A stretch of 64,000 nt of DNA from positions 1 through 64,000 of the forward strand of contig JAFSLV010000019.1 in the NCBI GenBank assembly GCA_017448245.1. The letters run 5' to 3'. The notes below the pieces were generated by a model, which saw only the letters and a list, made by a program, of their open reading frames with translations, ran no database searches and was not told where the DNA came from. A program made the position numbers and the translations under genes. The stretch is from Lachnospiraceae bacterium (GTDB lineage: Bacteria; Bacillota; Clostridia; Lachnospirales; Lachnospiraceae). Position 1 is the stretch's first letter; each line of letters opens with the position of its first letter. Of the stretch, positions 2,786 to 9,272 are shown piece after piece.

Positions 2786-5700
2786 ATGGACGAGAAGTAT
2801 CTGGATTCCCTGATGGAATCGGTTTCCAAAACAAAATCTCAAACGAACGGCGCCTCCATGAATATGGAGATGGAGGCGGCTGAGCGTGAGCTTGCGCGTC
2901 TTGACGAATTGCTCAAGATGGCGGATCAGAGCATTCTCGTCGACCAGAGTCTGGAGCAGAGACTGCAGGCATTTGAGGCTGCGGCAGAAAAAGCGAAGCA
3001 GGCACCGCCGCCGGTGATGCATGTCAGCGAGGAAGCTCAGACCTTTGAGGAAGCGCCGGATCTGCGTGATGAGGAAGAAATCGCACTGGATGCGGCGATC
3101 TCGGATGCAGAGCATGTGATGGAAGAAGCGGCACCGGAGCCGGAACCTGAGCCGGAGATGGAAATGCCGGCAGTGGAAGAGCCGCTGCCGGAGGAGCCGT
3201 TGCCGGAGCCGGAGATGGAGATGCCGGCTGCGGAAGAGCCGTTACCGGAGCCGGAGATCGAGATGCCGTTGCCGGAGGAGTCGTTACCGGAGCCCGAGCC
3301 GGAGATGGAGATGCTGGTGCCGGAAGAGCCGCTGCCGGAGTTTGACGCAGACAGTGGTCTGAGCCCGGAGCAGCTGGAGATCCTGGCGGCCGAGACGGGC
3401 GGCCTTGAGATGCCTGTGACGGAAGAACCGTTGTCGGAGCCTGAGATGGAGATGCCGGCGATGGAGGAACCCTTGCCGGAGCCTGAGATCGAAATGTCGG
3501 CGATGGAGGAACCCTTGCCGGAGCCTGAGATCGAAATGCCGGCGATGGAAGAGCCGTTACCGGAGCCCGAGCCTGAGATCGAGATGCCGGCGATGGAAGA
3601 TCCCTTGCCGGAGCCCGAGATCGAAATGCCGGCAGTGGAAGAGCCGCTGCCGGAGTTTGACGCAGACAGTGGTCTGAGCCCGGAGCAACTGGAGATCCTG
3701 GCGGCCGAGACAGGCGGCCTTGATATGCCTGTGGCGGAAGAACCGTTGCCGGAGCCGGAGATGGAGATGCCGGTGATGGAAGAGTCGTTACCGGAGCCCG
3801 AGCCGGAGATCGAAATGCCGGCAGTGGAAGAGCCGGTGCCTGAGCCGGAGATGGAGATGCCGGCTGCGGAAGAGCCGTTACCGGAACCCGAGCCGGAGAT
3901 TGAGATGCCGGTGATGGAAGAGCCGCTGCCTGAGCCGGAGATGGAGATGCCGACTGCGGAAGAGCCGTTACCGGAGCCTGAGATCGAGATGCCGCTGCCG
4001 GAGTTTGACGCAGACAGTGGTCTGAGTCCGGAGCAGCTGGAGATCCTGGCGGCCGAGACGGGCGGCCTTGATATGCCTGTGGCGGAAGAACCGTTGCCGG
4101 AGCCTGAGATGGAGATGCCGGTGATGGAAGAGCCGCTGCCTGAGCCGGAGATGGAGATGCCGGTGATGGAAGTGCCGTTACCGGAGCCTGAGATGGAGAT
4201 GCCGGTGATGGAAGAGCCGCTGCCGGAGTTTGACGCAGACAGTGGTCTGAGTCCGGAGCAGCTGGAGATCCTGGCGGCCGAGACGGGCGGCCTTGATATG
4301 CCTGTGGCGGAGGACCCGTTGCCGGAGCCGGAGATCGAGATGCCGGCGATGGAGGAACCCTTGCCGGAGCCGGAGATCGAAATGCCGGCGATAGAAGAGC
4401 CGCTGCCGGAACCGGAGATCGAGATGCCGGCGATGGAAGATCCCTTGCCGGAGCCCGAGATCGAAATGCCGGCAGTGGAAGAGCCGTTGCCGGAGTTTGA
4501 CGCAGACAGTGGTCTGAGTCCGGAGCAGCTGGAGATCCTGGCGGCCGAGACAGGCGACCTTGATATGCCTGTGGCGGAGGAACCGTTGCCGGAGCCTGAG
4601 ATGGAGATGCCGGCGATGGAGGAGCCGTTGCCGGAGCCGGAGGTCGAGATGCCGGCGATAGAAGAGCCGCTGCCGGAACCTGAGATCGAGATGCCGGCTG
4701 CGGAAGAGCCGTTGCCGGAGCCCGAGCAGGAGATTGAGATGCCGGCTGCAGAAGAGCCGTTGCCGGAGCTGGAACCCGTACCTGAGCCGGAGCCTGCGCC
4801 TGCGGTCGAACTGCCGGATGATCCGAATGCAATCCTGACGCCGGAGCAGATCGCGGCCCTCGCGGCGGCGGCGGAAGCACCTGCGGCGGAGCCCGAACCC
4901 GCTCCCGAGCCTGCGCCGGAACCGGAACCTGCACCTGCGCCGGATCTTGCGGCTGCGGTCGAACTGCCGGATGACCCGAATGCGATCCTGACGCCGGAGC
5001 AGATCGCGGCCCTCGCGGCGGCAGCGGAAGCACCCGCGGCGGAGCCCGAACCCGCTCCCGAGCCTGCGCCGGAACCCGCACCTGAGCCGGAGCCTGCGCC
5101 TGCAGTCGAACTGCCGGATGACCCGAATGCGATCCTGACGCCGGAGCAGATCGCGGCCCTCGCGGCGGCGGCGGAAGCCCCCGCGGCGGAGTCCGAACCC
5201 GCACCCGAACCCACACCGGAGCCGGAATCCGCACCTGCGCCGGATCTTGCGCCTGCGGTCGAACTGCCGGATGATCCGAATGCAATCCTGACGCCGGAGC
5301 AGATCGCGGCCCTTGCGGCGGCGGCGGAAGCCCCCGCGGCGGAGCCCGAACCCGCACCCGAGCCTGAGCCGGAACCTGCACCTGCGCCGGAGCCTGCGCC
5401 TGCGGTCGAGCTGCCGGATGATCCGAATGCAATCCTGACGCCGGAGCAGATCGCGGCCCTCGCGGCGGCGGCGGAAGCGCCCGCGGCGGAGCCCGAACCC
5501 GCACCCGAACCCACACCTGCGCCGGATCTTGCGGCTGCGGTCGAACTGCCGGATGACCCGAATGCGATCCTGACGCCGGAGCAGATCGCGGCCCTCGCGG
5601 CGGCGGCGGAAGCCCCCGCGGCGGAGCCCGAACCCGCGCCCGAACCCACACCGGAGCCGGAACCCGCACCTGCGCCGGATCTTGCGCCTGCGGTCGAACT

Positions 5701-7165
5701 GCCGAATGACCCGAATGCGATCCTGACGCCGGAGCAGATCGCGGCCCTCGCGGCGGCGGCGGAAGCCCCCGCGGCGGAGCCCGAACCTGCGCCCGAAGCC
5801 TCCGATGAACCGGATATAGGTGCTGCGCTGAGCGCGCTGGGTGACGTGGATCCGAATGCCACACTGAGCGCGGAGGACATCGAGAAGATGTTTGATGCGG
5901 CTGGCCGGACAACGCCCGCACAGGAAGCGGAAGCGTCCGAAGAGGCACCGGCAGACGAACTCGACCTGACGGCGCTTGCGGAAGGCGAGGGTCTGGATAT
6001 TCCCGAAATCAACATCGGCGAAGCGATTTCCGCTGAGAATGCCGAAGCGTTACTGGATACCGACGCGGATCTTGCGGAACTCGATGCACTGATGAATTCG
6101 CTCAAGACGGATGATATCGAGGATCTGGAGACGGAAGAAGACATCCGGGATATCGATGTCGAGCCCCAGGTGGCTGACCGGTCCGGTGACGATGCCGCGG
6201 AAGAAGCGGCGGTATATCTTGCGGGTCTGTCCGAGGATGACGAGATTCCGGAGGCCGGAAAGAAAAAGGGACTCTTCGGAAAACGCAAAAAGAAAAAAGC
6301 AAAAGCTCCCGCAGAAGAAGGCGCAGAGGGTGAAAAGAAGCCCGGCCTTCTGGCACGGATTCTGAATCTTTTGACGGAGGAAGAAGAGGACGGCGCACCG
6401 GAGGCCGGTGCGGCGGCAGCACTCGCCGAGGGAGAAGACGCGTCTCTTGCTTCACTGACCGATGAAAACCAGCAGGTTTTAAATGAGCTTGCCGAGGAAG
6501 ACAGCGGCAAGAAGAAGAAAGAAAAGAAGAAGAAAGAAAAGAAAGAAAAGCCGAAGAAGGAAAAGAAAGAAAAACCGAAGAAAGAAAAGAAGCCCAAGAA
6601 AGAAAAGCCGAAGAAGGAAAAGCCGGTTCCTACGGGACCGCCGCAAAAGCGTGTGCCGCCCAAACGGGTGGCGGTGGCAGCGCTCTTTGCCGCAACGCTC
6701 GGTGTACTCTGTATCCTGCCCGCGATGCTTTTGCCGCAGCGGATCGCCATCGGTCATGCGGTTTCAAGCTATTACCAGGGAGATTACACAACGGCCTTTA
6801 AGGAACTGCACGGAAAGGAAAAACTCTCTTCCGAGGCACAGGCAGTGTATGACAAGGCAAGAATCATCGTAAACATGAAGTATTACTATGATTCCTATAA
6901 TAACTACAAACAGGCCGGCATGACGGTGGAGGCGCTCAACGAACTGGTCAAGGGCGTTGTCAGCTATACGCCGCTGCAGGAACAGGCGGCAGCCCTGCAG
7001 GACATCTCGGTCGAAAACGAGCTGCGTGTTTCCTACAACAGCGTGGTAGGTGCCCTGCAGGTGGATTACGGACTTACACCGGAACAGGCGCTGGAGCTCT
7101 ATGCGATCAGCGACCGTCTGCTCTATACCATGCGCCTGCAGCAGATTGCGGGACTCAGGCCGTAA
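2786..7165 (+). CDS. Giant Pro/Glu-repeat membrane protein with FliM-like peptide repeats
   Basis: I know no named family for this 1459-residue protein. In order it shows: a helical N-terminus (about 1-110); an acidic region of EMPxxEEPLPEPE units with five copies of FDADSGLSPEQLEILAAE (starting near residues 186, 291, 407, 482 and 571); seven copies of ELPDDPNAILTPEQIAALAA (about 674-1000); two degenerate copies (TLSAEDIEKMF, AISAENAEALL); a Lys-rich tract (about 1150-1290, KKEKKEKPKK type); one membrane helix (about 1295-1314); and a helical, TPR-like C-terminus of about 145 residues. The basic tract before the helix predicts a cytoplasmic repeat region and an external C-terminus. The SPEQLEIL and TPEQIAAL peptides resemble the CheY-binding N-terminus of FliM (LSQxEIDALL), which fits its place behind cheV. 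The Met at 2786 has GGGGA five bases upstream, better spaced than the Met at 2780. The function is unknown. Confidence 0.85.
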   Translation: MDEKYLDSLMESVSKTKSQTNGASMNMEMEAAERELARLDELLKMADQSILVDQSLEQRLQAFEAAAEKAKQAPPPVMHVSEEAQTFEEAPDLRDEEEIALDAAISDAEHVMEEAAPEPEPEPEMEMPAVEEPLPEEPLPEPEMEMPAAEEPLPEPEIEMPLPEESLPEPEPEMEMLVPEEPLPEFDADSGLSPEQLEILAAETGGLEMPVTEEPLSEPEMEMPAMEEPLPEPEIEMSAMEEPLPEPEIEMPAMEEPLPEPEPEIEMPAMEDPLPEPEIEMPAVEEPLPEFDADSGLSPEQLEILAAETGGLDMPVAEEPLPEPEMEMPVMEESLPEPEPEIEMPAVEEPVPEPEMEMPAAEEPLPEPEPEIEMPVMEEPLPEPEMEMPTAEEPLPEPEIEMPLPEFDADSGLSPEQLEILAAETGGLDMPVAEEPLPEPEMEMPVMEEPLPEPEMEMPVMEVPLPEPEMEMPVMEEPLPEFDADSGLSPEQLEILAAETGGLDMPVAEDPLPEPEIEMPAMEEPLPEPEIEMPAIEEPLPEPEIEMPAMEDPLPEPEIEMPAVEEPLPEFDADSGLSPEQLEILAAETGDLDMPVAEEPLPEPEMEMPAMEEPLPEPEVEMPAIEEPLPEPEIEMPAAEEPLPEPEQEIEMPAAEEPLPELEPVPEPEPAPAVELPDDPNAILTPEQIAALAAAAEAPAAEPEPAPEPAPEPEPAPAPDLAAAVELPDDPNAILTPEQIAALAAAAEAPAAEPEPAPEPAPEPAPEPEPAPAVELPDDPNAILTPEQIAALAAAAEAPAAESEPAPEPTPEPESAPAPDLAPAVELPDDPNAILTPEQIAALAAAAEAPAAEPEPAPEPEPEPAPAPEPAPAVELPDDPNAILTPEQIAALAAAAEAPAAEPEPAPEPTPAPDLAAAVELPDDPNAILTPEQIAALAAAAEAPAAEPEPAPEPTPEPEPAPAPDLAPAVELPNDPNAILTPEQIAALAAAAEAPAAEPEPAPEASDEPDIGAALSALGDVDPNATLSAEDIEKMFDAAGRTTPAQEAEASEEAPADELDLTALAEGEGLDIPEINIGEAISAENAEALLDTDADLAELDALMNSLKTDDIEDLETEEDIRDIDVEPQVADRSGDDAAEEAAVYLAGLSEDDEIPEAGKKKGLFGKRKKKKAKAPAEEGAEGEKKPGLLARILNLLTEEEEDGAPEAGAAAALAEGEDASLASLTDENQQVLNELAEEDSGKKKKEKKKKEKKEKPKKEKKEKPKKEKKPKKEKPKKEKPVPTGPPQKRVPPKRVAVAALFAATLGVLCILPAMLLPQRIAIGHAVSSYYQGDYTTAFKELHGKEKLSSEAQAVYDKARIIVNMKYYYDSYNNYKQAGMTVEALNELVKGVVSYTPLQEQAAALQDISVENELRVSYNSVVGALQVDYGLTPEQALELYAISDRLLYTMRLQQIAGLRP
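3145..5810 (+). repeat. Coding tandem repeats, two unit types
   Basis: 3145-4790 is built from short EMPxxEEPLPEPE-coding units, broken by five copies of a conserved block starting near 3340, 3656, 4004, 4229 and 4496. 4805-5800 holds seven longer units whose GTC-GAA (Val-Glu) marker recurs near 4805, 4958, 5105, 5258, 5405, 5540 and 5693, a period of 135-153 bases. Copies are almost identical in DNA, so recent duplication or gene conversion is likely and copy number may vary between strains or be misassembled. Confidence 0.95.
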
Positions 7166-7886: not shown

Positions 7887-9272
7887 ATGAGAAGAAGTGT
7901 GAGAAACGGAATGAAAAAGATGTACGCTGTCGTGTTGCTTGCGGCGATGCTCGCAGGATGTACGGCTTCCCCCGCGGGCAATCAAACGCCTGCAGGAAGC
8001 GGGCAGCCAGGCCGGACCGCGAACGGAATCGAAGCGGTGGTTGCGCAGTATCCCGATACAGGCATCCCCGGGAACATGGACGCACAGGCCTTTATGGAAT
8101 CGGATGCGCACTGGGAGTGGTGGGACGAATACCGCCCGAAAATGGAAGCTTCTCTCGAAGTACAGGACGGGATGGAGTCTTATTACAATGCCGTGATGCG
8201 TGAACTGCTCGTCACGGACGAGACGGAGAATACGGTCTGCTCCCCGATCAATATCTATGTCGCACTGGCGATGCTTGCGGAATGTACGGACGGTAATACC
8301 AGGGCACAGATCCTTGACGTTCTGGGGGCAGACAGTGTCGAAACGCTGCGCGCCCGGATCAAAACCCTGTGGGAAGCCAATTACATCGATACACCGGTAC
8401 TGACCTCACTGCTTGCGGATTCCGTCTGGATGCGTGACGGCGTTACGTACAATGAGGAGACGATGCAGCGCCTTGCGGAACTCTATTATGCCTCCTCCTT
8501 TTCCGGGCCCATGGGGACGGAGGAGATGGACGCTGCCCTGCAGGGCTGGATGAATGAGAACACCGGAGGCCTTTTGGAAGACGCCGTCAAAGATATCCAT
8601 ACAACGCCGGAGACCGTGCTGGCTCTTGTTTCGACCATCTATTACAAAGCGGGCTGGGTCGACAAATTCCATGAGGGTGCGACGGACAAACAGACCTTCC
8701 ACGGCGCGGCTGCTGACACGGAAGTCGACATGATGCACCTGACGGATATGATGAGTTATTACGCGGGAGACAAATTCGGTGCCGTGCAGCTCGCCCTTAC
8801 CGACAGCGGTACGATGTCCTTCTTTTTGCCGGACGAGGGTGTGGATGTGAAAGACCTTGTGACCGATGAACAGGTGATGCAGGTGATCCGCGGTACATAC
8901 GGGAATGTGTCCTGGCCGATGGTACATCTGTCCGTCCCGAAATTCCGGACGGAGGCCAAAACCGATCTGATGGAGGCTTTTGAGCGACTCGGCATGACGG
9001 ACGTGATGACGGCGGGCGTTGCTGACTTTTCTCCTCTGACAGGGGATGCCTCGCTCGGTGATCTTTCCCTGAGCAGCGCCGAACACGCGGCGGTCGTGGA
9101 AGTGGATGAAGAGGGCGTGACCGGTGCGGCCTACACGATCATGATGGTGGCGGAGGGCGCCGCGGAAGGCGGCGATGAAATCGATTTTGTCCTGGACCGC
9201 CCCTTCTTCTTTACCGTGACGGCCCGCGACGGATCCATCCTCTTTGCGGGTGTCGTGCAAAACGTGTTATAA
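7887..9272 (+). CDS. Serpin-family protease inhibitor, lipoprotein
   Basis: The 461-residue protein has a signal peptide with lipobox AAMLAGC, so it should sit on the outer face of the membrane. The rest is a serpin: the helical start has [18 protein letters not shown], and the C-terminal signature is [24 protein letters not shown]. The reactive-centre hinge reads [10 protein letters not shown], close to the inhibitory consensus with small residues at most hinge positions but Val at P14 and Tyr at P9. By counting from the hinge the scissile region falls near MMVAEGAAE, with a small residue at P1, which hints at an elastase-like target (inference). Serpins of gut bacteria are known to inhibit host and microbial serine proteases. 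The ATG at 7887 has GCGAGG six bases ahead; another start is at 7911. It stands between hisH and hisF. Confidence 0.92.

Follow-up and report, generated by a model that had tools for sequence, protein, structure and literature searches.

A cheV-linked membrane protein of flagellated Lachnospiraceae as a candidate CheY-docking scaffold

Directly behind cheV in the genome of a Lachnospiraceae bacterium lies a long gene whose product carries repeated peptides on an acidic chain ahead of a membrane helix. The locus raises the question of what such repeats might bind. It was originally predicted that at least a dozen FliM-like peptides occur in the protein and that it may act as a membrane-tethered array of docking sites for phosphorylated CheY (CheY-P) or for the CheV receiver. 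Here we analyzed the gene within a stretch of 64,000 nucleotides (the window) and compared its product with relatives in other genomes and with the N termini of FliM and FliY.

The repeat gene, its product, and the cheV promoter

The repeat protein gene (positions 2786 to 7165; this and all other features of the window given below are on the forward strand) encodes 1459 amino acids. The ORF list opens it two codons earlier, at 2780, and the start at 2786 was favored because a GGGG stretch lies six bases upstream of it. From the N terminus, the product consists of MDEKYLDSLMES, an acidic proline-rich chain of about 1200 residues, an amphipathic segment, a lysine tract, a membrane helix, and about 145 further residues. 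The N-terminal peptide includes YLDSLM (2798 to 2815), the window's form of a peptide of the EEYLDSLL type found across the family. Residues 1 to 1240 contain 18.7% proline and 28.5% aspartate plus glutamate and have a net charge of -326. The amphipathic segment KKPGLLARILNLLTEEEEDG (6335 to 6394) is conserved within the genus, and the lysine tract (residues 1241 to 1294; 6506 to 6667) has a charge of +22. The only hydrophobic segment, with windows from residue 1292, places the membrane helix at about residues 1295 to 1316 (6668 to 6733), followed by a C-terminal domain (6734 to 7162) that is conserved across the bacterial family. Under the positive-inside rule, positive charge marks the cytoplasmic side of a membrane helix. 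Since the lysine tract stands before the helix, the sequence suggests that the repeats lie inside the cell and the C-terminal domain outside.

The chain contains five exact copies of GLSPEQLEILAAE (3356 to 3394, 3671 to 3709, 4019 to 4057, 4244 to 4282, and 4511 to 4549) and seven of AILTPEQIAALAA, each of the latter inside an exact copy of DPNAILTPEQIAALAAAAEAPAAE (4820 to 4891, 4973 to 5044, 5120 to 5191, 5273 to 5344, 5420 to 5491, 5555 to 5626, and 5708 to 5779). TLSAEDIEKMF (5861 to 5893), AISAENAEALL (6023 to 6055), and ELDALMNSL (6077 to 6103; DLDALMNSL in relatives of the genus) occur once each. Tandem Repeats Finder reported strong arrays from 3175 to 5801 and further arrays in the lysine tract; the window repeats are therefore not due to chance. 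The layout that had been described, with five and seven repeats and degenerate ends on an acidic proline-rich chain before a basic tract and one membrane helix, was thus confirmed.

The upstream gene, cheV (1753 to 2685), encodes a CheW domain (E 2.7e-29) and a receiver (E 8.7e-18). The ORF list opens it at 1744; GTG at 1753 was preferred by comparison with relatives. A sigma-28-type match, TAAA-N16-CCGATAA, stands before cheV (1663 to 1689) and fits the consensus given for Butyrivibrio fibrisolvens in the available part of the source (PMC3720852). A match to the predicted sigma-28 promoter is thus present in the window, but it is not conserved. Among 77 cheV upstream regions, the strict site was found in 2 (0.2 expected) and the loose form at chance level (8 seen, 7.3 expected), and a search for CGATA agreed. 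Conserved sigma-28 control was accordingly rejected. By eye, some relatives show sigma-70-like sites before cheV.

The contig opens with the terminal part of a 23S rRNA gene (1 to 263), and the repeat gene lies within a few kilobases of a contig end in many relatives too. Further downstream, between a GATase-type (hisH-like) gene and hisF, is a serpin gene (7914 to 9272; PF00079, E 9.8e-65) with a lipoprotein-like start.

Spread of the family and its co-occurrence with cheV and flagella

Relatives were searched for in whole genomes with the 170 amino acids from the membrane helix onward. An initial scan of genome contigs with the C-terminal region had given no match. Within the window's genus, 55 of 61 genomes (its own among them) have the region; none of 38 from the order's other families does. 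One of the six misses (G015) has the N-terminal half of the protein beside cheV at a contig end. Of the 67 genomes with completeness of 90% or higher and contamination of 5% or lower, 35 were positive; these were all 35 of the genus, the other 32 being outsiders. Among 299 Lachnospiraceae genomes, sampled at about one per genus, the region matched in 124 at an E value of 0.01 and in 120 at 0.001, although these genomes are related and such counts are not independent events. Judged by homology, the repeat protein is a member of an undescribed membrane-anchored family of Lachnospiraceae. Named relatives identified by cheV were rumen Lachnospiraceae and Butyrivibrio metagenome-assembled genomes, then Roseburia, Agathobacter, and others, and the window's genus is probably Butyrivibrio or a neighbor.

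No credible Pfam, NCBIfam, or PDB match was obtained for the repeat protein or its outer domain. The best single-member matches of the outer domain (E 2.5e-4 to 5.5e-4) hit unrelated families, and its PDB matches, an aldolase (0.0099) and GCN4 fusions (0.048), were unconvincing. Two alignments were used in profile work: A1, with 36 sequences from the 41 left of 54 once near copies were removed, and A2, with 57. Chain lengths across the family range from 449 to 2100 amino acids, some truncated by contig ends; since assemblies often break inside the repeats, the copy numbers counted in them are minimum values. The short form of Roseburia inulinivorans, 493 amino acids long, lacks the FliM-like motif. 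Such a protein was not found in titles and abstract openings among the literature matches listed, a scope that left out subscription papers and preprints and leaves absence unproven. CheV is absent from the main text of a paper on the motility genes of Roseburia and Eubacterium.

The predicted link to cheV was borne out across the bacterial family. At the cut used, cheV was present in 113 of the 120 genomes that hold the repeat protein, and in 102 of these 113 the two genes are no more than 7.5 kb apart, start to start; in the other 11 they are far apart on one contig (2 genomes) or on different contigs (9 genomes). The outer domain was also found in 31 of 40 named loci fetched by cheV. Of the nine without it, seven reach a contig end 1.0 to 3.3 kb past cheV, one (L189) shows an N-terminal part of some 130 amino acids, which stops about 0.9 kb short of the contig end, and one (L227) is a remote receiver. 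Counted by eye, 58 of 76 loci with cheV in the region compared (31 of 43 from the genus and 27 of 33 from elsewhere) have a further gene that separates cheV from the repeat gene and whose product starts with a VLVGIGEEW-like sequence. It is absent from the window and from some genus members. Its open frames span 166 to 333 amino acids (for example L137:3068-3856, L138:1341-2123, and L034:1294-2091), and the three products tested had no Pfam match; its cysteine pairs presumably recall a sirtuin-like fold.

We then compared the distribution of the protein with that of FliM. FliM was ordinary in 126 of the 299 genomes, divergent in 25, and weak or missing in 148, with the threshold that separates ordinary from divergent (1e-45) chosen after the values were seen; ordinary values end at 1.9e-48, the last two being cut by contig ends, and divergent ones begin at 8.9e-43. 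At an E value of 0.001, the C-terminal domain was found in 116/126 genomes with ordinary FliM, 0/25 with divergent FliM, and 4/148 of the others. These four all carry flagellin genes. Two of them (G140 and G245) have FlhA and CheA as well, a third (G272, 76% complete) has an FlhA fragment only and no CheA match, and the fourth (G332, 96% complete in 200 contigs) has neither. Since every positive genome has either ordinary FliM (116 of 120) or flagellin genes (4), none is a clear flagella-free genome. Homologues in nonmotile genomes without che genes, which would have spoken against the original prediction, were not seen, an outcome that favors it.

Within the 126 ordinary-FliM genomes, 110 have both the protein and cheV, 8 have neither, 6 have the protein only, and 2 have cheV only (Fisher p 1e-7). 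Eight of the ten genomes without the protein at 0.001 thus also lack cheV at the cut used; of the remaining two, the first (G112) carries its cheV at the end of a contig and the other (G382) has a weak match to the protein (E 0.0046). In the divergent-FliM group, cheV is present in 19 of 25 genomes, about 12 kb from fliM in those compared. Seven of nine divergent FliM sequences fetched start with LSQ[SN]QIDALL, while the frames of the other two (G144 and G113, both genomes without cheV) have no EIDALL-type start. Loss of the FliM peptide was considered as the cause of the protein's absence from this group; it fits at most these two and fails for the seven that keep the peptide. Because the peptide is kept in seven of nine while the protein occurs in 0/25, CheY docking at FliM does not on its own require the protein.

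FliM likeness of the peptides and candidate partners

A profile of the FliM/FliY peptide LSQxEIDxLL was built from 59 N termini, 16 of them distinct, and used to score 95 family proteins, 55 from the genus (the window's included) and 40 from other genera. At 14 bits or more, matches were found in 20/95 proteins, 0/95 reversed chains, and 9/950 shuffled chains. The corresponding counts were 25/95, 11/95, and 18/950 at 12 bits and 33/95, 17/95, and 54/950 at 10 bits; since reversed chains also score at these levels, the reversed control was passed at high scores and less clearly at low ones. A strict FliM-like pattern was present in 24/95 proteins (16/40 from other genera and 8/55 from the genus), in 0 reversed chains, and in at most one protein in any of 50 Markov copies per group. 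In the other genera, 24/40 proteins are without the strict motif and 20/40 without the loose one. The free positions of the loose pattern lean to FliM: among 50 distinct peptides, Gln stands at position 3 in 9 (background 0.02), Ala at position 8 in 30 (0.10), and Asp or Asn at position 7 in 14 (0.14). When the best peptide was set against shuffles of its own chain, it was significant at 0.05 in 24/40 other-genus proteins and not in 16/40. Peptides close to FliM include LSQEEMDALL (L173) and MSEEEIDALI (L149). A PDB search with peptides from L173, L144, and the window found no FliM chains; the organism's own FliM peptide finds them only at an E value of 0.31.

The likeness to FliM and FliY N termini thus exceeds chance across the family, whereas the repeats of the window protein stand at chance. 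Its best peptide reaches 5.4 bits, which 144 of 300 shuffles of its own chain equal, and only LSAEDIEKMF fits the loose pattern; the predicted dozen or more FliM-like peptides in this protein were not upheld. DPN followed by an [LM][ST]xEEI-like stretch was found in 20 of 126 proteins, including other genera, ranging from DPNHTMTADEIDALFAEAE through DPNEQLTPEQIAAMFAQAN to DPNAILTPEQIAALAAAAE, and as judged from these forms the window's repeat unit is the same module as in the clear FliM-like cases. The window copies are Ala-rich and have little amphipathic moment, and for that reason they look worn. In a close relative from goat (L188), the chain as far as the contig end holds ten DPNA[IM]LTPEQ units, with IAALAA after eight of them, and neither GLSPEQLEILAAE nor GLSPEQ; the window has seven DPNAILTPEQ and five GLSPEQ. 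Because these sets differ, the repeats appear to turn over fast between species.

The N-terminal peptide ranks with the most constant stretches of the inner chain. An EEYLDSLL-type start was found in 70/95 family proteins; of the other 25, 14 are cut or masked, 5 have near variants such as EERLDELL, and 6 differ, including SEIDALS and DLDALLSSID. At the place of FliM's Glu it carries Tyr, Arg, or His, and the forms that were scored gave values between -4.3 and 9.7 on the FliM profile, with 0.8 for that of the window. Two proteins (L174 and L175) begin with a Cys-pair element (CLNCGKEILDDELYCEDC and CKVCGAEIADTEEMCEDC) in place of this start. By eye, a second block like LxEIxxLLxKSDxxExVDxDMLALLE occurs in the inner chain of several members (for example L137, L145, and L147).

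The repeats could also be low-complexity sequence that drifts freely, with the outer C-terminal domain doing the work, for instance in the cell wall around the flagellum, and with the FliM likeness reflecting a capped-helix pattern; [ST]xxE is also a common helix cap. The family is indeed found by its C-terminal domain, the window repeats are at chance, and the helix and outer domain marginally match EssB (hhalign probability 47, E 1.9e-4, one pair). We nevertheless regard free drift as very unlikely, given the enrichment of the motif over reversed and Markov controls, the bias at its free positions, the conserved N-terminal peptide, and the recurrence of the DPN module.

The organism's CheY, the favored candidate partner, closely resembles a CheY solved with a FliM peptide. 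Its gene lies after fliM and fliY, and the product matches Thermotoga maritima CheY at an E value of 2.9e-51, with the last third nearly identical. The T. maritima protein was solved with the FliM peptide MSDVLSQEEINQLIEALMKG (PDB 4IGA, cited in the part of PMC7693769 available). According to excerpts of PMC9126983, the FliM N terminus binds CheY-P through its EIDALL motif in the groove of helices 4 and 5 and is described as a first high-affinity site; the accessible text of PMC7355467 adds that a flexible tether may then present CheY to further sites.

It is also conceivable that the peptides bind another chemotaxis or switch protein, such as the receiver of CheV, a phosphatase of the CheC or FliY type, or another receiver. 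The linkage of the repeat gene to cheV and the joint absence of both from 8/126 genomes would fit such a partner. The CheV receiver, which had been named beside CheY, aligns poorly with CheY over the last third, the region where FliM binds (KDFIVKPF in CheY aligned to DRQLSKPE in CheV), and this makes it the less likely candidate ligand. Moreover, 19/25 divergent-FliM genomes have cheV without the repeat protein. We consider a chemotaxis partner other than CheY improbable.

A possible docking scaffold and its relation to known systems

We propose, at roughly even chances, that the protein is a membrane-tethered, partly multivalent CheY-docking scaffold of flagellated Lachnospiraceae. A membrane-anchored protein would offer docking peptides on a long, probably disordered cytoplasmic tail, with one peptide of the EEYLDSLL type at the N terminus in nearly all members whose N terminus is readable; many members also have one or several FliM-like peptides within the chain, which follow [LM]SxEEIxALF. 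CheY-P would bind these peptides through the groove that it uses for FliM, and a pool of it would be held at the membrane, where the protein would work with CheV and serve as a buffer, a sink, or a relay close to the receptors or the motor. In the window species, the N-terminal peptide and TLSAEDIEKMF may carry the docking, because most internal repeats look worn. A further suggestion, which we regard as possible though somewhat doubtful, is that the family forms an undescribed layer of chemotaxis in which a membrane-tethered array of FliM mimics competes with the switch for CheY-P and the number and quality of repeats set the response range.

Flagellated Lachnospiraceae are common in animal guts. 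If the proposal is true, a widespread FliM-mimic partner of the ordinary flagellar system would give chemotaxis a buffer or relay for CheY-P; the clear prediction is that activated CheY binds the purified peptides. Should the partner be another protein, a family found in 116/126 genomes with ordinary FliM and close to cheV in 102/113 would still deserve a name in motility research.

The closest comparison is with FliM and FliY, whose peptide resembles the internal peptides of the family and stands at the N terminus, as the EEYLDSLL-type peptide does. The family differs in being membrane-anchored and in carrying several peptide copies per chain in some members; in comparison with FliM, its position 7 is often Ala and its position 10 often Phe. 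The window protein has no match to the FliM middle domain (PF02154), and the genome has one separate FliM match.

The helix and outer part also show weak profile similarity to EssB/YukC of type VII secretion. The match is marginal and the cytoplasmic domain of EssB is absent. The EssB model matched the C-terminal regions of 2/57 members (best E 0.0096), and EssB itself was matched in 9/100 genomes (7 strongly), the window genome not among them. We treat this kinship as a lead only.

HubP/FimV resembles the repeat protein in having one membrane helix and a very long, acidic, variable chain, as described in the part of PMC12918733 available. A pole or flagellar-site organizer of this kind would use its acidic disordered chain to place the array or the flagellum, and its short helices would bind clients other than CheY. 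The single membrane helix, the great variation in chain length and repeat number, and the conserved outer domain agree with such a role, and in Pseudomonas putida FimV is needed for normal swimming and for placement of the chemotaxis system (the same excerpt of PMC12918733). The order of parts is opposite, however, with the repeats N-terminal of the helix and probably inside the cell, and the family is tied to cheV and to one flagellar lineage. LysM, the outer domain of HubP/FimV, is not found in the window protein, is absent from the best 25 families for the 57 members, and is at most weakly matched in 2/36 outer domains (best E 0.018). The FimV/TPR C-terminal cytoplasmic domain is likewise absent, only the outer domain following the membrane helix, and each TPR-type family matches one or two of the 57 members (best E 3.4e-4). 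An organizer would also leave the convergence of the internal peptides on FliM residues unexplained, and we judge it unlikely.

The proposed docking of CheY-P outside the switch has a counterpart in CheF, the archaeal CheY-P adaptor, which is likewise a non-FliM protein that receives CheY-P (available passages of PMC9126983); CheF differs in that it is a folded dimer and binds another face of CheY.
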